This document shows positions 1,691 through 60,338 of a stretch of 64,000 nt of DNA, one piece after another. A model generated the notes under the pieces. The model was not told the origin of the DNA. It saw only the letters and a list, made by a program, of their open reading frames with translations, and searched no databases. Within the stretch, counting starts at the first letter, position 1, and the number at the start of each line of letters is the position of its first letter. The position numbers and the translations under genes were made by a program. The DNA comes from Leuctra nigra (lineage: Eukaryota > Arthropoda > Insecta > Plecoptera > Leuctridae): assembly GCA_934045905.1 (NCBI GenBank), contig OW203770.1, positions 3,286,001 through 3,350,000 of the forward strand, read 5' to 3'.

Positions 1691-2040
1691 CACAAATCTA
1701 AAATTTTAATTATTTGAATACTTAATATTTTAATATTCTATATTAGAAGAAATCTATCAAACTTTGTAAATTAATTCCTTGAGAACTGTTCGTCCCACAA
1801 CAAAAACCATAGAACATTTGTGTTCAGCAACATCTCTACTTTCATCAAATAACTATTATTCTGAAATCCAATCTTCCCGAGACTTTATAAGTCTTGTGCT
1901 CGGTGGCAATGCGTTGGCCCGGCTCCAGGACATGTAGTTATTCCTAGATCATGCGCACTTGTATATCTGCACGCTGTTTGCATGGGTCTGACGTCACTGC
2001 CAGAACACGGGGATATCTCAGCGATCCCAGCCCGGGCTGG
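1691..2040 (+). promoter_or_regulatory. Region upstream of the first-exon array, possible TATA box
   Basis: No repeat was recognised between the nested MITE and the exon array. A TATAAG at 1886-1891 lies about 180 bp before the first array ATG, and TGACGTCA occurs near 1990. This could be the original promoter of the protease gene, but the motif alone is weak evidence and no initiator was identified. Confidence 0.2.
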
Positions 2041-5000
2041 CAGACAGAGTTGTGTAAGTGAGCCGGCAAGATGTACACACTACTTGTCATCTCTCTCCTG
2101 GCAGTTGCTGACGTCACAGCCAACAGTGAGTATCATTACACCTTGTTCAGACAGAGTTGACTGAGTGAGCCGGCAAGATGTACACACTACTTAGTACTTG
2201 TCATCTCTCTCCTGGCAGTTGCTGACGTCACAGCCAACAGTGAGTATCATTACACCTTGTTCAGACAGAGTTGACTGAGTGAGCCGGCAAGATGTACACA
2301 CTACTTGTCATCTCTCTCCTGGCAGTTGCTGACGTCACAGCCAACAGTGAGTATCATTACACCTTGTTCAGACAGAGTTAACTGAGTGAGCCGGCAAGAT
2401 GTACACACTACTTGTCATCTCTCTCCTGGCAGTTGCTGACGTCACAGCCAACAGTGAGTATCATTACACCTTGTTCAGACAGAGTTGACTGAGTGAGCCG
2501 GCAAGATGTACACACTACTTGTCATCTCTCTCCTGGCAGTTGCTGACGTCACAGCCAACAGTGAGTATCATGACACCTTGTTCAGACAGAGTTGACTGAG
2601 TGAGCCGGCAAGATGTACACACTACTTGTCATCTCTCTCCTGGCAGTTGCTGACGTCACAGCCAACAGTGAGTATCATTACACCTTGTTCAGACAGAGTT
2701 GACTGAGTGAGCCGGCAAGATGTACACACTACTTGTCATCTCTCTCCTGGCAGTTGCTGACGTCACAGCCAACAGTGAGTATCATTACACCTTGTTCAGA
2801 CAGAGTTGACTGAGTGAGCCGGCAAGATGTACACACTACTTGTCATCTCTCTCCTGGCAGTTGCTGACGTCACAGCCAACAGTGAGTATCATTACACCTT
2901 GTTCAGACAGAGTTGACTGAGTGAGCCGGCAAGATGTACACACTACTTGTCATCTCTCTCCTGGCAGTTGCTGACGTCACAGCCAACAGTGAGTATCATG
3001 ACACCTTGTTCAGACAGAGTTGACTGAGTGAGCCGGCAAGATGTACACACTACTTGTCATCTCTCTCCTGGCAGTTGCTGACGTCACAGCCAACAGTGAG
3101 TATCATGACACCTTGTTCAGACAGAGTCGGCAAGATGTACACACTACTTGTCATCTCTCTCCTGGCAGTTGCTGACGTCACAGCCAACAGTGAGTATCAT
3201 TACACCTTGTTCAGACAGAGTTGACTGAGTGAGCCTGCAAGATGTACACACTACTTGTCATCTCTCTCCTGGCAGTTGCTGACGTCACAGCCAACAGTGA
3301 GTATCATTACACCTTGTTCAGACAGAGTTGACTGAGTGAGCCGGCAAGATGTACACACTACTTGTCATCTCTCTCCTGGCAGTTGCTGACGTCACAGCCA
3401 ACAGTGAGTAACATTACACCTTGTTCAGACAGAGTTGACTGAGTGAGCCGGCAAGATGTACACACTACTTGTCATCTCTCTCCTGGCAGTTGCTGACGTC
3501 ACAGCCAACAGTGAGTATCATGACACCTTGTCCAGACAGAGTTGACTGAGTGAGCCGGCAAGATGTACACACTACTTGTCATCTCTCTCCTGGCAGTTGC
3601 TGACGTCACAGCCAACAGTGAGTATCATTACACCTTGTTCAGACAGAGTTGACTGAGTGAGCCGGCAAGATGTACACACTACTTGTCATCTCTCTCCTGG
3701 CAGTTGCTGACGTCACAGCCAACAGTGAGTATCATGACACCTTGTTCAGACAGAGTTGACTGAGTGAGCCGGCAAGATGTACACACTACTTGTCATCTCT
3801 CTCCTGGCAGTTGCTGACGTCACAGCCAACAGTGAGTATCATTACACCTTGTTCAGACAGAGTTGACTGAGTGAGCCGGCAAGATGTACACACTACTTGT
3901 CATCTCTCTCCTGGCAGTTGCTGACGTCACAGCCAACAGTGAGTATCATTACACCTTGTTCAGACAGAGTTGACTGAGTGAGCCGGCAAGATGTACACAC
4001 TACTTGTCATCTCTCTCCTGGCAGTTGCTGACGTCACAGCCAACAGTGAGTATCATTACACCTTGTTCAGACAGAGTTGACTGAGTGAGCCGGCAAGATG
4101 TACACACTACTTGTCATCTCTCTCCTGGCAGTTGCTGACGTCACAGCCAACAGTGAGTATCATTACACCTTGTTCAGACAGAGTTGACTGAGTGAGCCGG
4201 CAAGATGTACACACTACTTGTCATCTCTCTCCTGGCAGTTGCTGACGTCACAGCCAACAGTGAGTATCATTACACCTTGTTCAGACAGAGTTGACTGAGT
4301 GAGCCGGCAAGATGTACACACTACTTGTCATCTCTCTCCTGGCAGTTGCTGACGTCACAGCCAACAGTGAGTATCATTACACCTTGTTCAGACAGAGTTG
4401 ACTGAGTGAGCCGGCAAGATGTACACACTACTTGTCATCTCTCTCCTGGCAGTTGCTGACGTCACAGCCAACAGTGAGTATCATTACACCTTGTTCAGAC
4501 AGAGTTGACTGAGTGAGCCGGCAAGATGTACACACTACTTGTCATCTCTCTCCTGGCAGTTGCTGACGTCACAGCCAACAGTGAGTATCATTACACCTTG
4601 TTCAGACAGAGTTGACTGAGTGAGCCGGCAAGATGTACACACTACTTGTCATCTCTCTCCTGGCAGTTGCTGACGTCACAGCCAACAGTGAGTATCATGA
4701 CACCTTGTTCAGACAGAGTTGACTGAGTGAGCCGGCAAGATGTACACACTACTTGTCATCTCTCTCCTGGCAGTTGCTGACGTCACAGCCAACAGTGGGT
4801 ATCATGACACCTTGTTCAGACAGAGTCGGCAAGATGTACACACTACTTGTCATCTCTCTCCTGGCAGTTGCTGACGTCACAGCCAACAGTGAGTATCATT
4901 ACACCTTGTTCAGACAGAGTTGACTGAGTGAGCCTGCAAGATGTACACACTACTTGTCATCTCTCTCCTGGCAGTTGCTGACGTCACAGCCAACAGTGAG

Positions 5001-6413
5001 TATCATTACACCTTGTTCAGACAGAGTTGACTGAGTGAGCCGGCAAGATGTACACACTACTTGTCATCTCTCTCCTGGCAGTTGCTGACGTCACAGCCAA
5101 CAGTGAGTAACATTACACCTTGTTCAGACAGAGTTGACTGAGTGAGCCGGCAAGATGTACACACTACTTGTCATCTCTCTCCTGGCAGTTGCTGACGTCA
5201 CAGCCAACAGTGAGTATCATGACACCTTGTCCAGACAGAGTTGACTGAGTGAGCCGGCAAGATGTACACACTACTTGTCATCTCTCTCCTGGCAGTTGCT
5301 GACGTCACAGCCAACAGTGAGTATCATTACACCTTGTTCAGACAGAGTTGACTGAGTGAGCCGGCAAGATGTACACACTACTTGTCATCTCTCTCCTGGC
5401 AGTTGCTGACGTCACAGCCAACAGTGAGTATCATGACACCTTGTTCAGACAGAGTTGACTGAGTGAGCCGGCAAGATGTACACACTACTTGTCATCTCTC
5501 TCCTGGCAGTTGCTGACGTCACAGCCAACAGTGAGTATCATTACACCTTGTTCAGACAGAGTTGACTGAGTGAGCCGGCAAGATGTACACACTACTTGTC
5601 ATCTCTCTCCTGGCAGTTGCTGACGTCACAGCCAACAGTGAGTATCATTACACCTTGTTCAGACAGAGTTGACTGAGTGAGCCGGCAAGATGTACACACT
5701 ACTTGTCATCTCTCTCCTGGCAGTTGCTGACGTCACAGCCAACAGTGAGTATCATTACACCTTGTTCAGACAGAGTTGACTGAGTGAGCCGGCAAGATGT
5801 ACACACTACTTGTCATCTCTCTCCTGGCAGTTGCTGACGTCACAGCCAACAGTGAGTATCATTACACCTTGTTCAGACAGAGTTGACTGAGTGAGCCGGC
5901 AAGATGTACACACTACTTGTCATCTCTCTCCTGGCAGTTGCTGACGTCACAGCCAACAGTGAGTATCATTACACCTTGTTCAGACAGAGTTGACTGAGTG
6001 AGCCGGCAAGATGTACACACTACTTGTCATCTCTCTCCTGGCAGTTGCTGACGTCACAGCCAACAGTGAGTATCATGACACCTTGTTCAGACAGAGTTGA
6101 CTGAGTGAGCCGGCAAGATGTACACACTACTTGTCATCTCTCTCCTGGCAGTTGCTGACGTCACAGCCAACAGTGAGTATCATTACACCTTGTTCAGACA
6201 GAGTTGACTGAGTGAGCCGGCAAGATGTACACACTACTTGTCATCTCTCTCCTGGCAGTTGCTGACGTCACAGCCAACAGTGAGTATCATTACACCTTGT
6301 TCAGACAGAGTTGACTGAGTGAGCCGGCAAGATGTACACACTACTTGTCATCTCTCTCCTGGCAGTTGCTGACGTCACAGCCAACAGTGAGTATCATGAC
6401 ACCTTGTTCAGAT
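2041..6413 (+). repeat. Array of 41 tandem copies of a 107-bp signal-peptide first exon
   Basis: The unit is 107 bp, counted from the donor GTGAGTATCA to the next. The first donor is at 2126 and the last at 6387. The distance equals 40 units after allowing one 7-bp insertion (second unit) and two 13-bp deletions (near 3122 and 4821), giving 41 units. Each contains GGCAAG-ATG followed by a frame reading MYTLLVISLLAVADVTAN, with a hydrophobic core typical of a secretory signal peptide. It ends in phase 1 at AACA|GTGAGT, a consensus 5' splice site. Units are nearly identical; variants are TTACACC/TGACACC, GAGCCG/GAGCCT and TTCAGA/TCCAGA. Downstream on the same strand are protease exons whose introns are also phase 1, so the unit is best read as the duplicated first exon of a secreted protease. 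Confidence 0.85.
2071..2125 (+). CDS. First copy of the signal-peptide exon (exon 1 of a secreted protein)
   Basis: The ATG at 2071 opens an 18-codon frame (MYTLLVISLLAVADVTAN plus one base). A Met, a short polar stretch and a Leu/Val/Ile core followed by small residues fit a signal peptide for the secretory pathway. The exon ends at 2125 before GTGAGT. The same exon recurs 40 more times up to 6386. Phase 1 at its end matches phase-1 starts at 9019, 10539, 11278 and 15405, so it can be spliced in frame to a protease exon. Which copy is used, and to which exon it joins, cannot be read from the genome. Confidence 0.55.
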
Positions 6414-6475
6414 AGACGAGTTGACAGCTAGGAGGGAACCTTCCCAGCATTCGCCTCTCGACTGTGTCAAACTGA
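6414..6475 (-). repeat. SINE fragment (second tRNA-headed family)
   Basis: The phrase GGAACCTTCCCAGCATTCGCCTCTCG-like, read in blocks, matches the body of SINEs at 34419-34640 and 48050-48150. Only a short piece remains at the end of the exon array. Confidence 0.4.
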
Positions 6476-7119
6476 AATCAGCTGCTGCAAGCGCGAGCGT
6501 TTTCCCGCTTGTTGCAGGCACTTTTTTTTGATACGATTGGAGACAAAATGGGTTGACGAAATGATTTGAAATTTTAATCATGATTAGATAAAAGACAAAC
6601 TTACGGTTATCCCTTTGTATATTTGTAATTTTTGCTTTGTTAGTAAATCGTTGATTTTTAGGGAAAAAATTTATATTTCTTGTCTCCCTGGGTGCCGTAT
6701 GAATTTTATTTTAAAGATGTGCCAAGTGACAACTCTTCACGCTAAATAAAAAAGACGGATTCAGCTCCGAAACTCCTAAATTTTGCACTTTACATATATT
6801 AATTTTAACACGTTGATGGTAAAATTCATTCAAAACGGAGCTGGAATTCGCATTTTTTTTGTTTTGCGTGTAAGTAATTGTCTTTTCACATTATGATTAA
6901 AATTTGAGATTAATTGGTTGACGGGTTTGGTCTCAAATCGTATCGGAAATTTCATAGTTCTGCGCGGTTTGTTGAATAACCGGCGCCGAAGCAAAATGAA
7001 AAAGTGATACTAATACAATCAGACTGATCATGTGAACATCCTATCAAAGTTACACCCACTTATGAAATAATTATTCTCCCTCAATTTTCTATAACAGCCG
7101 AGCGCTTGCACCACCTTAA
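6476..7119. mobile_element. TTAAGGTG-type MITE with a nested small MITE
   Basis: Shares GCTGCAAGCGCGAGCG, the internal block AAGACAAACTTA...GTTATCCC and the end GAGCGCTTGCACCACCTTAA with the complete copy at 48252-48787. The right TTAA is present; the left one is degraded. It is longer than the family because of an insertion at about 6738-6871 with its own inverted ends (CACGC..., CAGCTCCG / CGGAGCTG, ...GCGTG). Confidence 0.6.
6738..6871. mobile_element. Small palindromic MITE nested in a larger MITE
   Basis: About 130 bp. Inverted ends CACGCTAAA / TTTTGCGTG and inner inverted pairs around CAGCTCCGAAACTCC and AAACGGAGCTG. It interrupts sequence that is continuous in the sister copies of the host MITE. 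Confidence 0.5.
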
Positions 7120-7984
7120 TTAAACACGGGGGCGTACTTCAGTTTTCGCCCTCTTCCCCTCCTCCCCTCCCCCGCAGGATATTTGTATGGAACCCCTAAT
7201 ATTTCAATTGCCTACCGAAGAAGTTAAATATATAATAAAATGTTTACGACACTTTTTCATTTATTGTAAAACTAATTTCGTGCTGTGGTTTTCAGTAGTG
7301 CAGACAAATGTAGAAGGTAAAATATTATAACATCCGGTCCGATTTGGGTTTGGGCCTCACAATAATACGCGAATTTATATGAAACTTAAATATAGAATTT
7401 AGTACTAACGTGCTTCAAACGCTAATTTGGCCGATTTGATAATCTTAATTGTATAATTTACTAATAATTTAATTACTGTCGATTATCAATGTTTTTGATT
7501 TTATGGTATTCATTCAATTAAAATATTCGGGCCCCCTATCCCCCCCCCCCCCCCCCCCCCCCCAAGTCTGCGTTTGAACAACGTCCCTCTTGGTAGTCGG
7601 CTATACTCCACAGTTAACATCGGGGATTATACTATCTCATCAATATCATAACTTTTGTACACTCGCGGTCACATGAATTGCTTGATAAATTCTAAGCGAT
7701 TTCCCGAAACTTGATTGAGCAGACGAAAACACCGAGGTAAAGTCAGATCTCGAGCCTGTAGGGTTGGAGGGTTTGATTTAAAAACCAACCCCCTCATACA
7801 TTATGCCTTCATTCAACAATATTGACTGTAATTCCAGCTCCAACTAAGCCGTTTAAATCAATATTTCGAATCGTGAGTGTACTATTCAAATAAGAAAAAG
7901 CGTGATAAAACGTACAATGTGTGTAAAAACTCGTTGAAGAGCTGAGGAAAAGGGACATTTTGACTTTGACAGAAGTTTTGGCAC
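7120..7984. other. Unassigned DNA, possible 21-nt microexon
   Basis: No recognised element. A C run lies near 7541-7563. A 21-bp open segment at 7296-7316 is bounded by TGGTTTTCAG and GTAAAA, with phase 1 at both ends. It would fit the phase of the protease gene but is too short to supply the missing N-terminal protease exon. Confidence 0.25.
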
Positions 7985-8520
7985 ATATCTTGTATTAATG
8001 AGACTGTGTTTCTACGGGTCTTATGCCACTTTCTCTGTTTGTTTTTTGTTTGTTTTTTGTCCATCGCATATTGGAAGCACCGATTGACCAATCAAACTGG
8101 AATTTTGAACATACACTAATATCATTCTAGAATAGGCTGTTATTGTTTTTGAGCAATATTCAAAACAAAAAGTTGATTATTTTGATTAGGACCCTTGCCG
8201 CGCGGCACCCTGCTGAGTGACCCAAGTCGCATCGTCGCATCCTGTCCACCCCACCCCTCCACTAATGACCAGCCAGCCCCCAACCATTAAGAGAAAGGTT
8301 GTTTTTCCTACATTCAAATGAGAGAGGGGTCAATAATTTGCAAACTTTTTGAAGTAGGTAATTCGATTATGATATTTCTTGAATTTCGGTTAATCTTTGC
8401 CAGAGTTAATATATTTGTTAAAAATATTACAATTTATTTCAATCTGCATTAGTATATTAGAGGTATAGCGCGTATCGGTGCTCGCTTATCAATGCGTTAC
8501 AATGAGCGTTTTCCTAGTAT
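7985..8520 (-). repeat. Interspersed repeat of the CTAGGAAAACGCTC family
   Basis: Reverse-strand copy. The family head (on the minus strand ACTAGGAAAACGCTC...) is at about 8465-8520, and the tail zone with TGCCACTTTCTCTG and a T/G-rich run is near 8020-8065. GC-richer DNA at about 8190-8290 is not found in sister copies and is probably an insertion. Confidence 0.5.
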
Positions 8521-9018
8521 TACTAGGTCGACTAAACTGCGCTACTAATTATTTTTCACATTGTTCGTTAATCAAGTGGTAGAAAAGTTTTGACGATTAG
8601 TGAATATTATCAGCGATGTTCGCAGTTCGAATAGCGAGACAGAAGCTGTTTTTCGCGAGCTCTATTTTTAAATCTGTGCAGACTCAGCGAGGGTCCAAGT
8701 CATTCTATTTCTGGAAGTGTGGAAGTTGATCTCTTGTTGTTCATTCCACGCGTTTTACTTTCTGTGAAACAAAGCAAATGTAATGACCGAGGCGTCGTGT
8801 GAATTCTTTATTGAATAAAACACATAAATACATTTGGACATTGTTCAAATAATTTACGCGATTAGAAATTAATTGCCTGTCGGTTGACAATTAGTTCAAT
8901 TGATATTTGTTAGTTAATTGAATCATATTTTTAAGAATGGGCATTAGTCCCCCCAGCTCTTCCCACAGACAGTCTGATGAATTGGACGTTGTTCAAGATC
9001 TTTTTTGTTTTGTTTCAG

Positions 9019-11507
9019 CCGCACATTGTGTCGCAGATAACTCGCAACCGCAAACGCTGAGACTAAATATCACGGATTTCAAGGTCACGCTATCGAAGTT
9101 CAACTCCGCCTGGGATTGGGAAGATTACCATATCCAGAGGATCAACGTCGCTCAGATAACCATCCATCCCTATTACAGAGGACATGTAAGGTCATTCGAG
9201 TATGACATTGCGGTCATGAGACTGGCCAGTGCGGTCGCCATCACTGACTCGGTGGAGGTCGCTTTAATAGACTTCCATAACAGTCTGACGGATGTTCAAG
9301 AGACGAACGGAAGCCGTGGTTGGGTGAGTAAAAGTCTTAAACTACAACAGTAGGAAAACGAAGAACTGGAATACCGCAAACGACCTGTGGATTGGACTTT
9401 TATTGAAAAGCAGTATTTTGCAAGCCCCTTTGTAAGCTCAACCCAAGAGAAGGTTCAGCATAACAATGGGTTATGGTGCCACGCAGGTGAAGGACGGCAA
9501 AATAAAATAACCCTTTTCCAATGCACACATCGGGTGCTTAATTGACCAAATAATTGATAGTATCAGGGGTACAGGAGTTAAGTGGGGGAGACGTTCAAGT
9601 GATGACGCAAAATGTAGAGAAGAAGAATGAAGTAAGTGAAGAGCAGAAAGGAAATTATGCGAAATTATAGGCATCAGTTCCATTTGAAGTCGAATCTTTG
9701 TTCTTTTTAACACATTGTAAGAAGCTGATGTAAAAAGAATATCAAACGATTAATCACAAATCAGTCTCTAAAAATTTACAAAAACTATATACCTACTGTT
9801 TTAAAATGAGACATTCTTTTAAATTAAAAAAAAAAAATGTTTAATCCCAATTTCCTAACGCCACTTATTGTACAATATGTTGAAGTATGTCCACGAATAC
9901 ATAATTGACACATAAACTCTTCCTTCACAAGGTTGCCGGATGGGGACGGACTGAGGACGAAATGCGGAGCCAGTTCTTAAGGTCTATCGAGCTGCCCTAC
10001 GTCGACCCCATCTACTGCTACGACTCGCTGACCTCCGACCTGCGCCGCTTCGTCACTAACGACAAGTTCTGCGCAGGCTTCGTCAACAGGAGCCGCAGCG
10101 TTTGCGAGGGAGATTCGGGAGGCGGGCTGATGTTCCTGCATCGTCTGAGCAACAAGTACTACCTGCGGGGCGTGGTCAGCGTCGCCTTCAAACCGCCCGG
10201 ACATCCAGCCAGTGTAATATGCTACGACCAGCACTACACGGCGTTCACCAGAGTCAACGACCAGAAGACTCTGAACTGGCTCAAGACGCTGCTCCCGACT
10301 CGTGAGTAACATTCATGCACTAAACCAATACGAAATCAACAGTGCGAATAGTAGGTACAGTACCATCTTTACCGGTCACATTAATACACGACATGTAAGG
10401 AGAGAGTAACTCAGTGTAGAAATATTATTTTCTTCCGGCGCTGTGAAGCGATAATGTTTGTGCTGTGTGACCTTCTTAGTACTGATATTCCCACTTCTCT
10501 GAGCACTTGAGTGAGTTTGTTTTGACCTCTGCTTGCAGTGTCCACGCGACTGACTACGCATGCGCCTGCCACGTCTACTCCCGCGCCTGCGCTCTGCCCG
10601 GCATTCCCCAGCTCCGACTCACAACATGTCACTGCATGTCGCCTGAACAACCAGGCAGTGAGCTGCGCAGAGCCCGCGCGCATCAACACTGTGGTTGTCA
10701 TCAGCTGTCGTCATGGTTACGTGTCCAATGACTCAGAAACAAGTTGGACAGCGAAGTGTACGCGAAGAGGAGACTGGACACGGCCAAAACATTATTGCCT
10801 ACCGACTCAAGGTAAAGTAGAAGTCAGAAGTCAATAATGGTTTAGTCACTTCAACTGCGAGTAGTCAAGGGTGTTCATAGATTTAGAATGAAGAATTACT
10901 GGATTAATTATCCAGTGATAACTCTAAGTTTGTTTTTTATCTAATCATATTTAAAATTTAAAATAATTTCGTCAACCATTTCGTCTCCAATCGATTCCAA
11001 AAATGTGCCTGCAACAAGCGCCAAATCGCACCACTTTAACAGCTGAGAATAGTACGTCAAGAAATCGAGTGCGTCAATCATATCATCTCTAGATTGTGAT
11101 TCGTTCTTTTAGATAATATGCAATGTTACTGAAATTGCTAATAAATACTAACAAAATATGCACCATTCGTTTAAAACAGAATTGCCATAAGCTCCTCTAT
11201 GAATACAGTGACGTCCCTTCTAAATGGTGTTGTATGTCGCGCATGCGCAGTTCTTGATGGTTGTTATGTGTGTTAAGGTCCAGTGAGATGTGCCGCCATC
11301 TTGGAGGATGCTGGAACGAGTTCGTTAACCTGCACATCTGGCGGTGTTCTTGTCAACTGTGCTCAACCAATGGCTGTCGGCACAACATCTGCGTTAACAT
11401 GCAACAAGGAACATCACATAGCAGGAAGCAACGCCACTGTTCAGGCAGCCACTTGTTATCGAGACGGCACTTGGAGCAGCCTGTTGCAGTGTGTGTCAGG
11501 TAACTAA
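9019..11507 (+). CDS. Secreted chymotrypsin-fold serine protease with two CCP domains (5' part not found)
   Basis: Four exons: 9019-9323, 9932-10301, 10539-10811 and 11278-11499 (or running to a stop at 11505-11507). Every junction has AG/GT sites and keeps frame. The first exon gives AAHC (catalytic His) and DIAVM (catalytic Asp, codon at 9204). The second gives VAGWGR and CEGDSGGG (catalytic Ser, codon at 10115), so the triad is complete. The residue six before the Ser is Ser, not Asp, so trypsin specificity is not predicted. A Ser/Thr/Pro-rich linker leads into two CCP modules. The order protease-then-CCP differs from insect ModSP, where CCP precedes the protease, but the C-terminal YTAFTRV style is similar. 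The exon with the activation site and first barrel strands, expected between 6387 and 9019, was not found. It is therefore partial or damaged, or its exon 2 lies elsewhere. Confidence 0.8.
9324..9931 (+). other. Intron of the protease gene, phase 0
   Basis: GTGAGT donor and TTCCTTCACAAG acceptor. It splits the protease domain just before VAGWGR. The homologous intron occurs at 17379-18168 in the next gene, with the same phase. No other element seen inside. Confidence 0.7.
10539..10811 (+). CDS. CCP (Sushi) exon 1 with Ser/Thr/Pro linker
   Basis: A phase 1-1 exon between TGCTTGCAG and GTAAAG. It begins with a mucin-like linker (TTHAPATSTPAPA), then CPAFP, CRLNN, SCAEP, SCRHGY, KCTRRGDWTRP and HYC. 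This is the CCP pattern of paired cysteines, a GY turn and a GxW before the last Cys. Six cysteines are present, two more than the minimal four. It is likely a protein- or surface-recognition module attached to the protease. Confidence 0.7.
10915..11046. mobile_element. Fragment of TTAAGGTG-type MITE in an intron
   Basis: Matches the right-hand third of the family (GATAACTCTAAGTTTG, TTTCGTCTCCAATCG, CTGCAACAAGCGC, then a TTAA-like CTTTAA). It lies in the intron between the two CCP exons. Confidence 0.5.
11278..11507 (+). CDS. CCP (Sushi) exon 2, possibly terminal
   Basis: Acceptor TGTGTTAAG at 11277. The frame gives VRCAAI, LTCTSGG, VNCAQP, LTCNKEH, ATCYRDGTW and LLQCVSG: again Cys pairs, DGTW and a closing Cys. 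A GTAACT donor follows 11499 in phase 1. If it is not used, translation stops at 11505-11507 after CVSGN. Phase also permits splicing to 15405, so a single protease-CCP-CCP-protease-homolog protein cannot be excluded. Confidence 0.65.
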
Positions 11508-15077: not shown

Positions 15078-15129
15078 ATGTGGACTTGGTTGCTCCTTGG
15101 AATAGCCTGTCCACAAGAAGGAACAGCCG
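15078..15129 (+). other. Signal-peptide exon of the protease homolog gene
   Basis: ATG to GCCG|GTAAAC, 52 nt, ending in phase 1 like the array units at 2071-6386. It starts only 50 bp after the hairpin end of composite element A, so the promoter probably lies in or just after that element. It is single-copy here, unlike the array exon. Confidence 0.6.
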
Positions 15130-18100
15130 GTAAACTCAAGTAGGCAGTGAAATCATCATTGTTTTAGAGTACGTATGTCATTGTTGAAATCAGTTTCTTC
15201 ATTGTTGTCTAAAGGAAAGTTGGTGGAATTTAAAGTAAAGTTACACTGTAATTATTATAATTAAACTATTAAAACAATAAATATTAGTCAAGATAATGTA
15301 GAATTCTTCGTTCTTCGTATTCTTCGAATTCTCCGGCCCAGCATTCAATCAGTGAAAACACATTTCATTTCAATGCATTCACACATCCTGTCTTGTTGTT
15401 TTAGAGTGTGGAAGGAGAGAGGCCAGGCAGGTGACTGTTGCTGGCGAGACTGTGACGTCAGACCAGCCCTGGCGCATCAACATCTACAGGAGATATAGTC
15501 CTACAGGCAGTTGGGGTTACTGGACTACAGGAACTCTGATCTCACCAACACACGTGGTCACCTGTAAGTACACAGCAACACGATAACACACACTAGAACA
15601 AGATTATCATTCAATGCCAATGATGTCACAGAATATCTGGAATATTTTCACTCTCAAGGTCGGAGTTAACATTTAATTAGGTAGTCTTATTATAGGATAT
15701 TTGTCTGTATTATTGCACACTAGCTGAGTCCAATTCTCTGATCGCCTGTTAATCTAGCAAATTAAAATACATAATTCTAGAATATACTTAGGGCCGGTCT
15801 CTCTATGCCTTGCTAACTTTTAAACAGTCAATTAGGACGATATTGGCATGGCAACAACCAATGACATTCCTAGAATGACCACTAACTAACTGTTAAGAGC
15901 TAATTGAGACTTAAGCAGAGTATTGAAAGACCGGGCCATAATATTTTATTGATACCATCAATTAGACCAACGTTTATTTATTTAACAAACCGATTAAGGG
16001 CCGGTCTTTCTATGCCTTGCTAACTTTTAAACAGTCAATTAGGACGATATTGGCATGGCAACAACCAATGACAATCCTCGAATGACCAATAAAAACCTAA
16101 CCAATGGTTTAGCAGACTATTGAAATACCGGCCCTAAGAGGTAGCTGTTTAATTACAATTTATTTCCAATATTTTGACTATTTCTGCTTTAAACAAAGAT
16201 TCGAATGCAGTTTTATATGCGTTATTCAACACTAGGTAAAGTCCAATCCACACTCGCAACATCTGGCTGATCAACTTGGTTCTGCGCATGCGCAGTGTAA
16301 CATTGTCTTGAGCAAAGTAACACTGCGCATGAGCAGAACCAAGTTGATCAGCCACAAGTTGCGAGTGTAGAGTTCGTTCACGTTTAGAATATCAAGGTCG
16401 TGTAGATACTGCTGTAGTCAAATGAACAATTGTACTCCTACACATGTAAATATCAATATAATAATATTTTAATACGACTGTAGATAAAAATAAATCAATA
16501 TTATTGAATGTTTTTAACATTTTCTACTATTAAAAATGGTGTATTTCACTTAATTTGTGCAATTTCAATAACACAAAGAAGAAAGTCTTGCCATTGACAG
16601 GGCAGTGTTCAAGTGACTGACCAATGAACGACGTGATCAACTAAAACGTCAGAAATATTCTTATCGTAAACATGCGTGAACGAACTTTATATTACATTGT
16701 TGAAATGACAGAGCTAACTAGATAATTAAAATGCGGTTTAATATTAGGAATAATTCTGTGTTCCAACTGGCCAACAAGAATAATACAAGTCATAGTCATA
16801 GAATGAAGAGAGAAATAGAAGTTGCTGTTTCTACACGACTTGGTTTTGATATCAAGGTCTATAGATCAGCTGCAAACACAGCGTCATGTTATTTGCAGGT
16901 TTCTTGTGTTTTACTTCTTCAACAAGCTCGTCTTCTGATAACAAATAATCTGATGTAATTGCAACTTGAAATAATATGAAATGACATTGATGTGATGGAT
17001 CACAATAATGTCTGGAACATGAAACCACTGCAAGAAATGTCGCCTGTTAGTGTTCACCATGCAGTGACGTCATCAAGGACATGTTTGTTTGTTTCAGATG
17101 CAAATTGGGTTACAGACAGCAACGGCATTGCGCGCGCAGCATCTGACTTTATACTCGTGGCTGGCGGACATCTGTATGACTATGACGTCACTGAGCCAGA
17201 CACGCAGGAGAGGAACGTGACGTCATTGCATCGTCACGAGCAGTTCGATAGGGACAGCAGAGTCCACGACATCGCAGTGCTTGTTGCGCATGCGCCGTTC
17301 ACATTCACACGGGCAGTGAGCAGCGCATGCGTGGACTGGACCGGTCTCCTGCAGCCAACACCAAGCCAACGTGTCCTTGTGAGTACAACAGCGCATGCGC
17401 ATGTCTGGAGAAGAAGAGAACAGTTAATTGAGCGAGCGTCACAACTCTTATGACACTTTCTCTGTGTGTGCTTTTTGTTTGTTTGGTTTGGTTTTTTGCC
17501 TGCACTGCCCAGGTCAAACCGCACAACCAATCTATCTGAAACTTTGCACACATACTAACGTAATCTAAGCGGTATCTGGGATCGTTTTTGAACGGGATCC
17601 TGTGATTGGTTCAAATTTTTAATTAATTAACTCTCGATTAGTTGATCCGATCAAATTGAAATTTTTGCAAAATCATTGCAACCAACATTGTCCCCAATCT
17701 TACAAAGTTTCAGCCAAATCCTCTTATTTGTTAAAATTTAACAATTTTATTGTTTTTTTTTACATTCAACTAGAACCGTTTGACCGATCAACTTAAAACT
17801 TTACATGGTCATTGGGGCCAACAGCTTAGTTTTTTTCTTCTTCAAATTTTCAGACTAATTATGTCGTTATTTTAAAAATATATTGCCATTTTAAGGGCAT
17901 TTTATTCTTTAATTCTGAAATATTTGCAAATATACTTATGCCAATAATTTCAACCTATTATATCAGTGCTATCTGATAGAGCAGAAACCTGCAAACGCAT
18001 ATCAAATCGCATACAATGCGAAGGCTCGCTCATCAACGCGTTACACAGAGCGTTTTCCTAGTATTTCAATTCTTATTTAAATACATCATGTAAATGCACG

Positions 18101-18495
18101 GCGCCTTGGTCGCCTGCCAGTGACTGTGTTGTTTCCACTACAGAGTGTGTGTTGTGTTTGTGTTGCAGACTTATGGTTATGGAGGCGGCGTGTTTCTCAC
18201 TCAGCCAGCCGCCATATTATCTCATGAGCAGTGTAGGACAGAGGCCGGGGAGGAGAGACGTCGCTACGTATCATCAGACGACATCTGCGCCAAGACAACT
18301 GACAACAACACTTGCTGGGACGTCTACGGCGCAGGACTGTTGATGGAGCGTGGCGATAGGTTCTATCTGCTCGGTGTGGGGAGAGCTCAACTGGCTTACA
18401 CTGACACTGATGGTTGTTGGAGGAATAGACTGTATTCATACACATCTCTGACGTCACATAGCAGCTGGCTGAGGCGACTCATTGACAAGCCATGA
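15078..18495 (+). CDS. Secreted serine protease homolog, catalytically dead (4 exons, 272 aa)
   Basis: Exons 15078-15129, 15405-15563, 17098-17378 and 18169-18495 join in frame into 272 codons plus TGA, with consensus AG/GT at every border. Exon 1 encodes a signal peptide (MWTWLLLGIACPQEGTA). Exon 2 starts ECGRRE and carries VTVAGE in place of IVGG, and DQPW. Across the next junction the His motif TAAHC is replaced by TYANW, so the catalytic His is Asn. DIAV keeps the Asp. In the last exon GDSGG is replaced by DVYGAG, so the Ser is Tyr. It is therefore a non-catalytic S1 homolog, a class known as cofactors or regulators of protease cascades in arthropods. That role is inferred. It lies 3.6 kb after the catalytic paralog, same strand, with the same phase-0 intron before TYGYG/VAGWG. 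Confidence 0.8.
15791..15937. mobile_element. GGGCCGGT MITE, copy 1
   Basis: About 147 bp with inverted ends GGGCCGGTC and GACCGGGCC. Its left half is nearly identical to the copy 60 bp downstream. It lies in an intron of the protease homolog. The target duplication is unclear. Confidence 0.55.
15998..16134. mobile_element. GGGCCGGT MITE, copy 2, with TAA duplication
   Basis: 137 bp, ends GGGCCGGTCTTTC / GAAATACCGGCCC, flanked by TAA at 15995-15997 and 16135-16137. A 3-bp TWA duplication is the habit of PIF/Harbinger elements. Confidence 0.65.
16250..16368. mobile_element. Short palindromic MITE (ACACTCGCAAC family)
   Basis: Arms ACACTCGCAAC...TGGCTGATCAACTTGG and their inverse flank a small centre with GCGCATGCGCAG. 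A related copy is at 31399-31503. It directly abuts the TA-flanked MITE at 16370. Confidence 0.6.
16370..16687. mobile_element. TA-flanked MITE (AGTTCGTTCACG ends), copy 1
   Basis: 318 bp with inverted ends AGTTCGTTCACG / CGTGAACGAACT and flanking TA dinucleotides, as in Tc1/mariner elements. In inverted order it matches 49142-49455, including CAGGGCAGTGTTCAAGTGAC. Confidence 0.7.
17427..18062 (-). repeat. CTAGGAAAACGCTC-family repeat in an intron
   Basis: The minus-strand head is at 18062 and the tail GACGCTCGCTCAA near 17427-17440. It contains TTTGCACACATACTAACGTA and the TGACCTGGGCAGTGC block of the family. It lies between exons 3 and 4 of the protease homolog, apparently without harming splice sites. 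Confidence 0.65.
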
Positions 18496-45059: not shown

Positions 45060-45205
45060 AGAATGTAGGTTTCTGTGGAAAACTTCCATGGAGTCAGGAT
45101 GATACGAAGGGATGTGCGTTGTGAAAAATATCCGACCGAACCGGGGCTCGAACCCGGGACCTCTCACTTGCCGGGCGAGAGCTCTACCAACTGAGCTACC
45201 CGATC
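45060..45205 (-). repeat. tRNA-headed SINE, first family
   Basis: The minus strand starts with a 72-nt tRNA-like head (45134-45205) identical to that at 52626-52697 except at its 5' edge. The body runs to GAAACCTACATTC at 45060. Two SINE families therefore lie head-to-tail neighbours here. Confidence 0.7.
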
Positions 45206-52625: not shown

Positions 52626-52697
52626 GACCGGGTAGCTCAGTTGGTAGAGCTCTCGCCCGGCAAGTGAGAGGTCCCGGGTTCGAGCCCCGGTTCGGTC
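52626..52697 (+). tRNA. tRNA-Ala(GGC)-like SINE head, probably not a functional tRNA
   Basis: Folds as a 72-nt cloverleaf: 7-bp acceptor with two G-U pairs, D-arm GCTC/GAGC, anticodon stem CTCGC/GTGAG, T-arm CCGGG/CCCGG with TTCGAGC. The loop CCGGCAA would place GGC as anticodon. Position 33 is C instead of the universal T, and the same sequence heads the SINE at 45060-45205 and parts of 27869-28065. I therefore call it a SINE head rather than a tRNA gene. Confidence 0.5.
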
Positions 52698-52989
52698 GAA
52701 GTACTTATTATTGCAATGTTGTATTTGCAGTCAGTAGGTAAATTAATACTTCACAGCATTGGACTGTATAACGTTTCAGAGTATTTGTCAACTTATGCAA
52801 ATATTGAATAATAGTACATCCAAGACAGGGGTGACCAAACCAAAGTTTGACGTCTTTACCCCTCACCGCCAACCAACAAGAGACCGCTTTCAAAATGATA
52901 AAATAATGTATGTTACTCGTAATTAATATGAACATAAGCTCAGCAAGTTTGGTAACAGGCCTTTAGGCCTTTAATAGATTATGAGTAAT

Positions 52990-55388: not shown

Positions 55389-55785
55389 TGTAACATGTAA
55401 ACTGAGGGAGGGCGGCCGCCCGAGGTCAACCGGTCATACAACCCCTCACGCGCTCGAGCAGGGGCTCGAGAGTTGTTGACCGGCCAGCGACGGAACTGGT
55501 TGTGTTGTGTGTTGTTAGAGAGACGTTTCTAGAAGCCGACGCAGGAAACTGATTTTTGTACAGAGAAAGAGTGTTGATCATTATTATTTGTCGGACTGTC
55601 TTACGACGACTTGTGCTGTGGGATTAAGAGTTATTAAAAGTATTGTTCAAGTGTGATTGTGTTCAAGGTGTTTTGTTTACGAGCTTCGTGCTTCCTCGTA
55701 CCCCAGAAGCACGTGGCGCCCATCCCCGTCCGCCAGCGTTCCCCCACCCACCCCATTCCACCGTTAAGAAGGGGCAAACGTTATA
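55389..55785 (+). repeat. 5' LTR
   Basis: Starts TGTAAC and ends GTTATA (imperfect inverted termini), 397 bp. Includes a GC-rich inverted segment CGCTCGAGCAGGGGCTCGAG near 55450. It holds the promoter of the element, but no TATA box could be pinned down. Confidence 0.9.
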
Positions 55786-55787
55786 AC

Positions 55788-55806
55788 TGGCGCCCGACGT
55801 GGGACC
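55788..55806 (+). other. Primer-binding site
   Basis: TGGCGCCCGACGTGGGACC begins two bases after the LTR. It is complementary to a tRNA 3' end of the CGGGCGCCA type, closest to a lysine tRNA as I know those families. The exact isoacceptor is an inference. Confidence 0.75.
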
Positions 55807-55818
55807 GAAATTTTGAAA

Positions 55819-57126
55819 ATGGATTACACACGACTGACGCGTGACGAGATCGAGTATGAGTTGAAGATACGCGGACTAGGCGAGGGACTGACCACCGTTG
55901 CCGAAATGAAAACCGTCCTCGCCCAGGCCCTCAAGACCGAGAAGGAGGGGAAGAGCACCTGCCCGCAAGAAACCACTCTGGATCCGGAAGAGGAGCTTGA
56001 AACGTGCAAGATGAAAATAGCGGACCTGAATACAGCGATTACCAACTACAGCGGTTCGTCCAAGGCGGATTCGGAGTACAAACGAATAGAAACACGTTTG
56101 GGACACATCTTGCGCCGGCTCGGAAGGGTGAGTGCACTCATCGCGGACGTGTGTACAAGACGAACGGAGCTGATACAGGAAGCAGCCAAGTGCGGGGACA
56201 AGCTTAAGGAAAAACTGCTTTCAGACCCGTTAGCTATATTGGCGGCCAATAAAACTTTGTCAGATGCCTTGGCTAAGTTAGCAACCGGCGAGACCAGTGC
56301 CAGGAAAAAGTATGTTCCAGCCAGAGACTGGGGAGTTACCTTTACGGGGGACGGCCGTGGGTTGAGTGTAAGCGCCTTCCTGGAACGCATCGAAGAATTA
56401 TGTGAGTCCAGACTACGATCGAAGGAAGACTTACTAGTGGAAGCAATGGATTTATTCGACGGCTCAGCATTAGTATGGTACCGATCCATTAGGCGGCAGC
56501 TCGGCTCCTGGGAAGACCTCACGCAAAAACTACGAGAAGAGTTCCTATCACCCGACTATGACGAGGAGTTACTCGACGAAATTAAGAAGCGAACTCAAGG
56601 ACCGGAGGAAACCATTGGAATCTACGTCGCCTTCATGAGTAACTACATGGCGCGGCTGCAGACACCTTTGGCCGAATCCGTCCAGCTAAGTATAATTCGG
56701 AAAAACTTAGACCCGTTTTATGTGGACAGGTTAAGTTTGCAGCAGATCGAGTCCGTGGCCGACCTTCTTAGCCTGGGACGGAAGCTGGAGTACAGCCGGC
56801 AACGGGTACGCAAATTTCAGCATCCCGTGCAGCAGAAGGATTCTATCGAACCTGACCTGGCCTACCATGGACGCCGAAGACTGCCAGATCGTCCAGGCCC
56901 GAACGTCGGTGCGGTACAGGAAGAGAATCTAGCGGACGTCTCCACAGCGACCTCGAGAGGCAGCAGAGGGCCATGTTGGAACTGTCAAGGTACCGACCAC
57001 ACCTATCGCGATTGTTTGGCAAAAAGGTCAGTGTTCTGTTATGGTTGTGGTGCAGCAAACGTTTTGAAGCCAAATTGTATCCCTTGCCGTGAACGTGCGG
57101 GAAAAGCAGCAGCGGGTCGAGTGTAG
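55819..57126 (+). CDS. gag: Gag polyprotein of the Ty3/gypsy element (435 aa)
   Basis: Structural protein that coats element RNA into cytoplasmic particles. I start it at ATG 55819, just after the primer-binding site; an earlier TTG has no support. The N-terminal half is acidic and helical. A capsid-like retrotransposon gag region follows (around AFLERIEELCESR and DLFDGSALVWYRS). Near the C-terminus is a CCHC zinc knuckle, CWNCQGTDHTYRDC (about residues 386-399). A second knuckle-like CYGCGAANVLKPNC has Val where the His should be. The frame ends TAG at 57124-57126, 18 nt past a slippery heptamer that moves ribosomes to pol. Confidence 0.9.
   Translation: MDYTRLTRDEIEYELKIRGLGEGLTTVAEMKTVLAQALKTEKEGKSTCPQETTLDPEEELETCKMKIADLNTAITNYSGSSKADSEYKRIETRLGHILRRLGRVSALIADVCTRRTELIQEAAKCGDKLKEKLLSDPLAILAANKTLSDALAKLATGETSARKKYVPARDWGVTFTGDGRGLSVSAFLERIEELCESRLRSKEDLLVEAMDLFDGSALVWYRSIRRQLGSWEDLTQKLREEFLSPDYDEELLDEIKKRTQGPEETIGIYVAFMSNYMARLQTPLAESVQLSIIRKNLDPFYVDRLSLQQIESVADLLSLGRKLEYSRQRVRKFQHPVQQKDSIEPDLAYHGRRRLPDRPGPNVGAVQEENLADVSTATSRGSRGPCWNCQGTDHTYRDCLAKRSVFCYGCGAANVLKPNCIPCRERAGKAAAGRV
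57099..57105 (+). promoter_or_regulatory. -1 ribosomal frameshift site G GGA AAA
   Basis: GGGAAAA lies in the gag reading register as G-GGA-AAA, the canonical X-XXY-YYZ form. The pol frame opens at 57093 (after a TGA at 57090) and gag stops at 57126, so slippage must occur in this 34-nt overlap, and this is the only such heptamer I see there. Downstream GCAGCAG and CTCCTGC could pair as part of a stimulatory stem. Confidence 0.8.
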
Positions 57127-60100
57127 GGCGGACTCCTCCTGCAAAGCTGATATGTTCGCCTCCTAACGAAGAGTGGTGTGACTGGTTAGACGTGGTAGCC
57201 AATCATAGTCTTCGAGCCAAGCTGGACCATATCCTGGCATCGGCAGGGAATGATAGTCGGCCTAGCCTGAAGGTACACGTGTTGGGGATAGCAATGCAGG
57301 GTCTTCTGGATTCCGGAGCATCAAGAACGATTCTTGGTCGGGGCGGCTGGGAGAAGATCAAAGCACTTCATCCTCCTCTTCGGAAAATGGAAGCAGGTAT
57401 GGTGCGCGTTGCTGATGGACGTTCTTGTCAAGTGTTAGGAGAGGCTGATCTGCCGATTGAATTAGATGGGAGAGTAAAAGTTTTACCAATTTTGGTAGTC
57501 CCATTACTGGAGCGTGCCTTATACTTAGGGATCGACTTTTGGAAGACAATGAGGTTTGTCCCCGATGTAGCGCAGGGTACCTGGACCTTTAGTGATAGTG
57601 GAGAAATACCCCGGGTAGCCGAGTGTACTCAAATCAAGGACAGACTCTCACCCAAGGAAAGAATTCAGTTGGAGAAGATGGTGACAGATTTGATGGCTCT
57701 CCCACAGGATAAGCTAGGGGTAACAGGTTTAGTGCATCATAAGATCGATACAGGAGATGCGGCTCCCATCAAACAACGGTACTACCCTTATTCACCGGTC
57801 ATACAGAAGCAGATTAATAAGGAACTCGACGAAATGTTAAGGGACGGAGTAGTCGAACCTTCAACCAGTGCATGGAGTTCACCTATTATGCTAGTAGAGA
57901 AACCAGATTCCAAGGCCTTTAGGGTATGCATAGACTTCAGAAGAGTGAATGCAGTGACCAAACGTGACGCATATCCTTTGCCGTACGTGTCAGCTATCTT
58001 GGACCGGTTAAGGAATGCAACGTACATGTCCTCCCTAGACCTGAAAACGGCGTATTGGCAAGTGCCCCTGGAAGAAGAGAGCAAGGAAAAGACGGCATTT
58101 GCAGTGGCGGGCCGGGGTCTTTTCCAATTCCGGCGGATGCCCTTCGGGTTGCATAATTCTCCAGCAACGTGGCAACGTTTAATAGACCGAGTATTAGGCC
58201 CAGAACTAGATCCCCACGTATTTGTGTATCTAGATGACGTGATAATTGTTACTCCTACTTTTGAAGCACACTTCGAGGTTCTACAGAAGGTGTTGCAGAA
58301 GTTGAAGGCGGCGGGCCTGACATTAAATAAGGACAAATGTCAATTTGGCCGTTCAGAGTTGAAGTACCTTGGGTACATGGTTGATGAGGGGGGTTTACGC
58401 GTGAACACTGAAAAGGTTACGGCGATGATTAACTACCCGACGCCCAAGAATGTTACTGAAGTTAGACGTTTCATTGGACTGGCAAGTTGGTACCGACGTT
58501 TCGTACCAGATTTCGCCACGAAAATGGTACCACTGAATGAGTTGACTAAAGGGGTGCGAAAGGGCCAAAGAAATCCGCCCTGGAAGTGGGAGGAAAAGCA
58601 TGATCTGGCTTTTCGACAAATCAAGAGCCATTTAGTAGAAGCTCCCCTCCTCACCTGTCCCGACTTCAACCGGCCATTTCTGATACAAACTGACGCTTCA
58701 GAAGTGGGTCTGGGAGCAGTTATCTCACAAGAGTTTGAAGATGGAGAAAAGGTCATTGCGTATGCCAGCCGGTCATTGACAAAGAGTGAACGGGTCTACA
58801 CCACCACGGAATTGGAGTGCTTAGCGGTGGTCTGGGCAGTGGAGAAATTTAGACCGTATGTGGAAGGCTCTCCATTCACAGTCATCACGGACCATCATTC
58901 CTTAATCTGGCTACATAACCTCAAAGACCCGAGAGGACGGCTCGCTCGTTGGGCGATAAGGCTGCAACAGTACTCGTTCGAAATTCTGCATAGACCCGGG
59001 AGGAACCATGCTGTACCGGATGCCTTGTCGAGATCCGTGGGACTTCTGGAGTCTATTGAAATCACCAAGGACGACCATGATGACTGGTATACGGCCCAAC
59101 TCAAGAAAGTAATGGATTATCCTCAAAATTATCCGAACTGGAAGGCTGAAGATGATAAGTTGTGGAAGCGTTTACTACGAAGAAAAAAACAGTTCCTACT
59201 AACTCCAGAAGACGAAGGCTGGAGGATGGTAGTTCCGAGATCACTGCGGAAAAGTCTTCTAGTAGAATACCATGATCAGCCGACAGCCGGGCATCTGGGA
59301 ACCTTTAAGACTATCAAGAGGATATCCGAAACGTACTACTGGCCAGGCATGGCCGCCGACATCAGTCGTTATGTCCAGAAGTGCAAGGTCTGCCAATCCC
59401 TCAAGCCTGTGCAACAACTACCAGCGGGGTTGATGGGAAGCCAACGGGAAGTCACCAATCCTTGGCAAATGATCTCCACAGATCTGATGGGCCCTTTCCC
59501 GGTTTCCTCTAAACAAAACCGGTTCCTGTTAGTGATTGCCGACTGTTTCACCAAATATACCTTACTCTTCCCGTTACGAACTGCAACTGCAGAGAAGATA
59601 GCCCAAATCATGGAGCATGAAGTGTTTCTCGTGTATGGAGCTCCCCAATATGTGATCTGCGACAACGGAACTCAGTACACCAGTAAACAGTTTGTGGATA
59701 AAGTTACCGGCTATGGGGGGAAAATCCTTTACAACCCAAATTACCACCCGCAAGCGAACCCGACAGAGAGAATCAATCGCGTCCTGAAGACGATGATAGC
59801 GTCGTACGTGAAGGATAACCATCGGAGTTGGGACAAGAATTTACCACAGTTGAGGCACGCCATCTGTACGGCGACACACGAAGCGACGGGTTTCACACCC
59901 GCTTTTCTCAACTTTGGCCGAGAACTCTTCTTGTCCGGGACGTCGTACCGCAAGTTGGAAGAAGATGGTTACGCTCCGAGGATGGGTCCACGTGAACCTC
60001 GGGCCAAGCTATTAAAGGAACTTCCCGCACTCTACGCCGAGGTTACTGATAGACTCCAAAGAGCCCACGAGAAGAACAGCCGGATCTACAACCTCCGTCG

Positions 60101-60338
60101 CCGTCCACTGCAATTTCAACCAGGAGATGTTGTTTGGAGAAAGACTTTTCCCCAATCAGATGCCGCGCGCTACTTCACGGCGAAGTTAGCACCGAAGTAT
60201 ACGCGGTGCTTCATCCACAAGCGGGTGTCCAACCTAGTCTACGAGCTGCGGGAGGAAGATGGGCGAGTACTTCCAACCAGGTGGCACGTACAAGATCTCA
60301 AGCCGGATGCGACGCCCGAAGCAGAAGATAATTTATAA
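57105..60338 (+). CDS. pol: Pol polyprotein: protease, reverse transcriptase, RNase H, integrase
   Basis: Made as Gag-Pol by -1 frameshift; no good ATG is needed and none lies near the start. Numbering from the GTG at 57192 (1048 codons): aspartic protease DSGA at 40-43. Reverse transcriptase has LDL at 282-284 and YLDD at 346-349. RNase H has TDAS at 500-503 and TDHHS at 566-570. The integrase zinc domain uses H694, H701, C731 and C734. The integrase core has D764, D824 and E859, 34 residues between the last two. The order PR-RT-RH-IN is that of Metaviridae. No stops or frameshifts interrupt it, so it appears intact. It ends TAA at 60336, 32 bp before the 3' LTR, leaving no room for an envelope gene. 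Confidence 0.95.
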   Translation, partial: SSSGSSVGRTPPAKLICSPPNEEWCDWLDVVANHSLRAKLDHILASAGNDSRPSLKVHVLGIAMQGLLDSGASRTILGRGGWEKIKALHPPLRKMEAGMVRVADGRSCQVLGEADLPIELDGRVKVLPILVVPLLERALYLGIDFWKTMRFVPDVAQGTWTFSDSGEIPRVAECTQIKDRLSPKERIQLEKMVTDLMALPQDKLGVTGLVHHKIDTGDAAPIKQRYYPYSPVIQKQINKELDEMLRDGVVEPSTSAWSSPIMLVEKPDSKAFRVCIDFRRVNAVTKRDAYPLPYVSAILDRLRNATYMSSLDLKTAYWQVPLEEESKEKTAFAVAGRGLFQFRRMPFGLHNSPATWQRLIDRVLGPELDPHVFVYLDDVIIVTPTFEAHFEVLQKVLQKLKAAGLTLNKDKCQFGRSELKYLGYMVDEGGLRVNTEKVTAMINYPTPKNVTEVRRFIGLASWYRRFVPDFATKMVPLNELTKGVRKGQRNPPWKWEEKHDLAFRQIKSHLVEAPLLTCPDFNRPFLIQTDASEVGLGAVISQEFEDGEKVIAYASRSLTKSERVYTTTELECLAVVWAVEKFRPYVEGSPFTVITDHHSLIWLHNLKDPRGRLARWAIRLQQYSFEILHRPGRNHAVPDALSRSVGLLESIEITKDDHDDWYTAQLKKVMDYPQNYPNWKAEDDKLWKRLLRRKKQFLLTPEDEGWRMVVPRSLRKSLLVEYHDQPTAGHLGTFKTIKRISETYYWPGMAADISRYVQKCKVCQSLKPVQQLPAGLMGSQREVTNPWQMISTDLMGPFPVSSKQNRFLLVIADCFTKYTLLFPLRTATAEKIAQIMEHEVFLVYGAPQYVICDNGTQYTSKQFVDKVTGYGGKILYNPNYHPQANPTERINRVLKTMIASYVKDNHRSWDKNLPQLRHAICTATHEATGFTPAFLNFGRELFLSGTSYRKLEEDGYAPRMGPREPRAKLLKELPALYAEVTDRLQRAHEKNSRIYNLRRRPLQFQPGDVVWRKTFPQSDAARYFTAKLAPKYTRCFIHKRVSNLVYELREEDGRVLPTRWHVQDLKPDATPEAEDNL

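Follow-up and report, generated by a model that had tools for sequence, protein, structure and literature searches.

A 41-copy tandem array of a putative coding first exon upstream of a serine protease gene in the plecopteran Leuctra nigra

Repeated first exons and the array of Leuctra nigra

The alternative 5′ exons of the Pcdh, UGT1 and Dscam genes encode differing parts of the protein, and in exonic and intronic minisatellites the repeated unit is a portion of an exon or intron. In a 64,000-nt stretch of the genome of Leuctra nigra (Insecta, Plecoptera, Leuctridae; assembly GCA_934045905.1, contig OW203770.1, positions 3,286,001 to 3,350,000 of the forward strand; hereafter the window, numbered from its first base), a 107-bp unit with the features of a coding first exon is repeated 41 times upstream of a predicted secreted protease gene. 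The nearest precedent found is PEP1 of Arabis alpina, in which exon 1 and part of intron 1 have been duplicated in tandem and both copies are spliced to a shared exon 2 (PMC3527215). PEP1 and the array are alike in their tandem first exon with part of intron 1. They differ in that PEP1 has two long copies, segments of ~2 kb lying 6.3 kb apart, which include part of the promoter and are both transcribed (PMC3527215), whereas L. nigra has arrays of 41 and 29 copies of 107 bp with a TATA-like block outside the unit.

Several other systems share single traits with the array. Quantitative PCR showed extra copies of exon 1 of HvFT1 in some barley lines; exon 3 was multiplied as well, as was the promoter in part of the lines (PMC4047512); the likeness lies in the multi-copy first exon, whereas HvFT1 is not described there as a short-unit array. 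Variable-first-exon clusters, such as Pcdh and UGT1 (PMC1885805) and the 5′ cassettes of chelicerate Dscam (PMC4835542), join tandem alternative 5′ exons to shared downstream exons. The copies in these clusters differ in their coding sequence, whereas those described here are near-identical and encode the same 18 residues in 40 of the 41 units. Minisatellites or variable number tandem repeats (VNTRs) such as that of MUC2 consist of short near-identical tandem units (PMC2065792), and the array likewise consists of near-identical short units arranged head to tail; unlike that of such minisatellites, its unit covers a leader, a start codon, a whole coding exon and a splice donor. Searches of open-licence literature turned up no example in which an entire coding first exon is multiplied to dozens of near-identical tandem units, which is a weak indication that none has been described.

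Tandem Repeats Finder delimits the array at 2041-6416, with a period of 107, 41.1 copies, 97% matches and a score of 8346. Split at the unit start, it contains 41 head-to-tail units on the plus strand (2041..6408). The consensus unit is composed of a 30-bp leader, 55 bp of coding sequence (18 codons and one base, which places the donor in phase 1) and 22 bp of intron 1 starting at the donor. Twenty-one of the 41 units are identical to the consensus, confirming the high copy number and the low divergence noticed in an earlier, sequence-only reading of the window. That reading also held that every unit keeps its ATG, its signal-like frame and its phase-1 donor. This is true of 40 units, in which the exact MYTLLVISLLAVADVTAN frame is followed by one base and a GTGAGT donor (GTGGGT in unit 26 only), but not of unit 2 (2148..2261, plus strand), which measures 114 bp and has its signal-peptide frame disrupted by a 7-bp insertion. 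Units 11 and 27 are 94 bp long, with 13 bp of the leader deleted. In unit 1, the coding part of exon 1 (MYTLLVISLLAVADVTAN, phase 1, plus strand) lies at 2071..2125 and its GTGAGT donor begins at 2126. Since 107 bp is not divisible by three and the frame read through the array from unit 1 stops after 29 codons, the array does not encode a repetitive protein.

Copies of the unit were searched for in the whole assembly (536 Mb, 144 contigs, in which the window is C9:3286001-3350000; all match counts are lower bounds). At least 71 matches were obtained at three loci: 41 in the window, 29 in a second array at C9:938824-941926 on the minus strand, and one on contig C6. The C6 copy is single and 92% identical to the unit over 97 bp. 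It forms exon 1 (MYTLFVNSLLAVAAVTAN) of a predicted gene that continues with an N-terminal protease exon and with counterparts of five window exons described below (SP1a, SP1b, SP2a, SP2b and SP2c). The model comprises seven exons and 560 open codons plus a stop codon, with consistent phases, and its predicted product is an insect-type modular serine protease. Unit 1 of the window and the exons downstream of the array can likewise be joined in a gene model with a single open frame of 663 codons, all phases being compatible. That the repeated unit is a real first exon is best supported by the predicted C6 gene; the earlier assignment of the unit to exon 1 of a secreted protease was thus right as to its origin, the C6 copy heading a gene model and unit 1 being in phase with the exons downstream.

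In spliced-leader arrays, a segment of about 100 bp that includes a splice donor is repeated in tandem, a description that the array fits. It is nevertheless highly improbable that it is an array of spliced-leader RNA genes, or an unrelated satellite that mimics an exon by chance: by eye, the 107-bp unit lacks the T-run typical of an Sm site, the only Rfam matches at the curated cut-off in the window are two tRNAs, and the use of the same sequence as a phased first exon in the C6 model largely refutes this explanation. We consider instead that the array is probably an entire coding first exon amplified in tandem in the manner of a minisatellite, with one copy in use. It would then be a minisatellite made of a true first exon, with a small chance of being a working promoter array.

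Origin of the array and relationship between the two arrays

The single exon 1 on C6 is flanked by imperfect direct repeats, the leader carrying CAGATAGAGTTGA and intron 1 carrying CAGATAGTGTTGA. From the start of one to the start of the other is exactly 107 bp, and the two repeats match in position the left-hand and right-hand boundaries of the arrays. In the window, the right-hand boundary repeat (CAGATAGACGAGTTGAC..., 6409..6429, plus strand) appears as a remnant of the intronic direct repeat; it aligns with the intronic repeat of C6, 107 bp from the leader repeat. Judging from these positions, direct repeats of the C6 type are the likely seed of the amplification. In the ancestral single-copy state, exon 1 of a modular serine protease gene would have had a short imperfect direct repeat on either side, the two being 107 bp apart. 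Through pairing of these repeats out of register during replication or recombination, the 107-bp segment, with its leader, ATG, signal peptide, donor and beginning of intron 1, would have been duplicated, and more slippage and unequal exchange would have raised the number of copies to 41. Recent amplification accompanied by homogenisation fits these data; the sequence-only reading had proposed recent amplification and homogenisation by unequal exchange as alternatives.

The last step may have included a duplication of 16 units. Units 10-25 (3011..4709, plus strand) form a 1,699-bp higher-order block that differs at two positions from a second block made of units 26-41 (4710..6408, plus strand), and the second copy reaches the exact end of the array. 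This block duplication may result from recent unequal exchange or from a duplication in the assembly. In the latter case, the true array would have about 25 units, the last 16 having been added twice, for example when two haplotypes were joined. Such a partial artefact, which would be compatible with the proposed origin, is suggested by the two differences in 1,699 positions and by the coincidence of the second copy with the array end. We regard it as unlikely: unequal exchange produces such blocks too, a second array with another order of unit types was assembled elsewhere, and no N is present within 94 kb around.

This second array (array 2) is inverted, lies 2.35 Mb from the array of the window (array 1) and contains 29 full units, so that the unit number differs between two arrays of one assembly. 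The exact frame and donor are found in 24 of the 29 units; the other five carry coding changes, one of them ATG>ATA. The flanks of array 2 match positions 1761-2040 and 6418-8818 of the window. A segment with the putative promoter, the array and part of intron 1 is present, in inverted orientation, at this second place too. The order of unit types is not the same in the two arrays, and the identity between their flanks varies as a mosaic, from 82-93% in some places to 98-100% across 7317-8816 and within parts of the promoter. This pattern suggests that the two loci have recently been copied from one to the other or have exchanged sequence, and because of it no particular cause has to be sought for the fact that the commonest unit is identical in both arrays. 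Within the 80 kb surrounding array 2, neither the seven protease exons of the window (E up to 1e-3) nor the 120 listed protease homologues (E up to 1e-4) gave any match. Array 2 carries a promoter-like block, and inverted copies on the same contig could mark an inversion breakpoint.

Promoter use and constraint on the units

A candidate promoter and 5′ leader (1884..2040, plus strand; TTTATAAG at 1884-1891) precede array 1 and lie outside the repeated unit. The TATA-like box, some 150 bp ahead of the array, and a run of identical bases right after it are conserved at each of the three loci. The location of this conserved block outside the unit favours a single upstream promoter. Transcription would have a single start, either upstream of the array or at unit 1. 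The start codon and the splice donor would come from unit 1, and units 2-41 would sit in intron 1 and be removed by splicing, so the product would carry one ordinary signal peptide regardless of the copy number. If transcription begins upstream of the array, unit 1 is the copy most likely to be used.

Several observations weigh against an amplified exon of which one copy is used. Three ATGs are present between the start predicted from the TATA-like box and the ATG of unit 1, and four in the C6 counterpart, which speaks against a start upstream of the array. Most units contain an initiator (Inr)-like TCAGAC and a correctly spaced downstream promoter element (DPE)-like AGATGT. In array 1 taken alone, none of the six substitution positions is coding (P = 0.013), a hint of constraint. 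The gene of the window lacks the N-terminal (second) protease exon that is present on C6, and its ability to work is in doubt for this reason. Finally, a 12-in-13 direct repeat such as that of C6 is not rare by itself, being reached by 4 of 100 simulated sequences; the argument for a seed stands nonetheless because the spacing and the place of the repeat equal the period and the ends of the arrays.

The Inr/DPE-like pair raises the possibility that each unit is an independent TATA-less core promoter with its first exon, in which transcription starts at the A of TCAGAC at the beginning of the unit, the DPE overlaps the start codon and the copy number tunes expression of one and the same secreted product. 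Inr scores of 5/6 with DPE scores of 6/6 occur in 36 of the 41 units of array 1, scores of 5 or 6 with 6 in 22 of the 29 units of array 2, and 5 and 6 in the single copy of C6; among 3000 first-order random sequences of unit length, 74 reach Inr 5 with DPE 6. A start inside the unit would moreover bypass the upstream ATGs. The pair was found after looking; an equal summed score is obtained with 129 of the 3000 random sequences, and six such sites exist in the window outside the array. Unit 1, which stands beside the conserved TATA-like block, has an Inr score of just 4/6. This block has been kept at all three loci, and a search of 80 kb around array 2 brought up no protease exon. We regard independent unit promoters as improbable. 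There is only a slim prospect that a single secreted protease of immune type is supplied by dozens of interchangeable first exons, each equipped with an Inr-DPE promoter, an ATG, a signal-peptide sequence and a donor of its own. The dozens of alternative first exons or promoters put forward in the sequence-only reading are unproven: the TATA-like block is outside the unit and the gene of the window lacks the exon that follows exon 1, though most units bear the Inr/DPE-like pair. A cAMP response element (CRE)-like motif of each unit, TGACGTCA, occurs 78 times in the whole window, including 37 times outside the array and several times within other repeats; because it is also common outside the array, it is not special in the window.

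The hint of constraint in array 1 becomes stronger when the three linked differences in the leader of unit 1 enter the count as separate positions (0/9 coding, P = 0.0015). Five coding positions are changed in array 2, and pooling both arrays gives 13 variable positions with 5 in the coding part, which makes up 51% of the unit (P = 0.26). The pooled count leaves aside the leader haplotype (positions 13, 14 and 16), the indels (one of them coding, in unit 2) and a piece of flank split as unit 30 of array 2; the position test assumes independent events, which may be untrue. Selection on each unit was rejected on the basis of the coding changes of array 2 and of the pooled count. The divergence of the flanks was also rejected as proof of selection on the units, the identity of the flanks between the arrays being a mosaic. 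Nor is there support for the argument that an ordinary satellite would have lost such a package, since a young repeat keeps the content of its founder and five of the 29 units of array 2 show coding changes. The units thus appear to be without convincing constraint, and their content may be that of the founder, which does not require selection.

The protease gene of the window and its possible decay

Seven exons on the plus strand were recognized downstream of array 1. The first protease domain is encoded by SP1a (9019..9323, with a phase-1 acceptor and the catalytic His and Asp motifs AHC and DIAV) and SP1b (9932..10301, with the catalytic Ser motif GDSGG), both matching PF00089 above the cut-off, so that the catalytic triad of a trypsin domain is present. 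They are followed by two Sushi/CCP exons, the first (10539..10811) matching PF00084 above the cut-off and the second (11278..11499) falling just below it (E 0.0011, 19.7 bits versus a cut-off of 20.7). The second, protease-like domain is degenerate. Its N-terminal exon SP2a (15405..15563) has no Pfam match and was recovered by our own profile trained without SP2a (E 1.9e-7); the middle exon SP2b (17098..17378) reaches 19.9 bits with PF00089, below the cut-off of 20.6, and has ANW in place of the catalytic AHC; the last exon SP2c (18169..18495, including the stop codon) has no Pfam match and is 68% identical to a C6 exon. No LDLa domain was matched in the ten window frames scanned.

The top database matches of the window protease are insect modular serine proteases or clotting factor C-like proteins, with 23-41% identity among the matches listed. 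Several of these top homologues contain, by eye, two protease domains with sushi modules between them. The window gene has trypsin and sushi domains in common with insect modular serine proteases and Limulus clotting factor C-like proteins (PMC4085338); it differs from the modular proteases by the lack of the N-terminal part of the first protease domain. On C6, no counterpart of the sushi exons (window 10539-11499) was found, and the two paralogues seem, from their predicted exons, to differ in domain make-up.

The N-terminal exon of the first domain, which would contain the activation site and the N-terminus of the domain, was not convincingly detected before position 9019 in a profile search, the control for which was the recovery of the left-out SP2a exon mentioned above. 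It was also absent from profile searches of 94 kb around the window and 80 kb around array 2, which recovered the C6 exon; the profile used there includes the C6 exon, and an earlier profile without it had recovered this exon as well. A tblastn search with the homologues (E up to 1e-4) agrees, no such exon being among the matches listed, although a very diverged or split exon might escape these searches. From a comparison of window positions 7224-9019 with C6, the exon has 165 nt there and is of phase 1-1, so that its loss preserves the reading frame.

These results raise the possibility that the array is functionally dead, the downstream gene being a copy that decays after the loss of its second exon and yields no useful product; this would be compatible with the proposed origin of the array. 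The failure to find the 165-nt exon around either array points in this direction. So do the ratios of non-synonymous to synonymous substitution rates (dN/dS) of 1.33 and 0.70 in two of the three exons of the second domain. All exons of the window are nevertheless open across the 663-codon model, and the loss of 165 nt is neutral for the frame. Between the window and C6, dN/dS is 0.18 and 0.24 in the exons of the first domain, 0.46, 1.33 and 0.70 in those of the second, and 0.42 for all combined (Nei-Gojobori, gapped codons excluded), values which, being pairwise, cannot tell which copy was constrained or when. The low ratios of the first domain therefore indicate that it was constrained during much of the time since the copies parted, in one copy or the other. 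Decay of the gene seems to us a serious, if doubtful, possibility.

A second signal-like start (MWTWLLLGIACPQEGTA, then GTAAAC) is present at 15078-15129, with a TATA-like stretch upstream, and is phase-compatible with SP2a; in the corresponding DNA of C6, the GT donor is missing at that place. Further downstream, the window contains two matches to tRNA-Ala (GGC), at 45133-45205 (minus strand) and 52626-52698 (plus strand), possibly parts of tRNA-derived repeats, and the gag and pol frames of a retroelement at 55768-60338, with reverse transcriptase, RNase H and integrase domains, which we read as being of the Ty3/Gypsy type.

First-exon duplication is carried to an extreme in the array of L. 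nigra, and a single-copy paralogue elsewhere in the genome still shows its likely seed. The array is a natural setting in which to study how the cell chooses among dozens of identical start codons and donors, and how a coding exon can turn into a minisatellite. It is also a reminder that selection is not proven by a coding package that looks intact when the repeat is young. If the units did act as an array of promoters, expression of the protease would scale with the number of repeats, or be buffered by it, and this number could be altered by unequal exchange.

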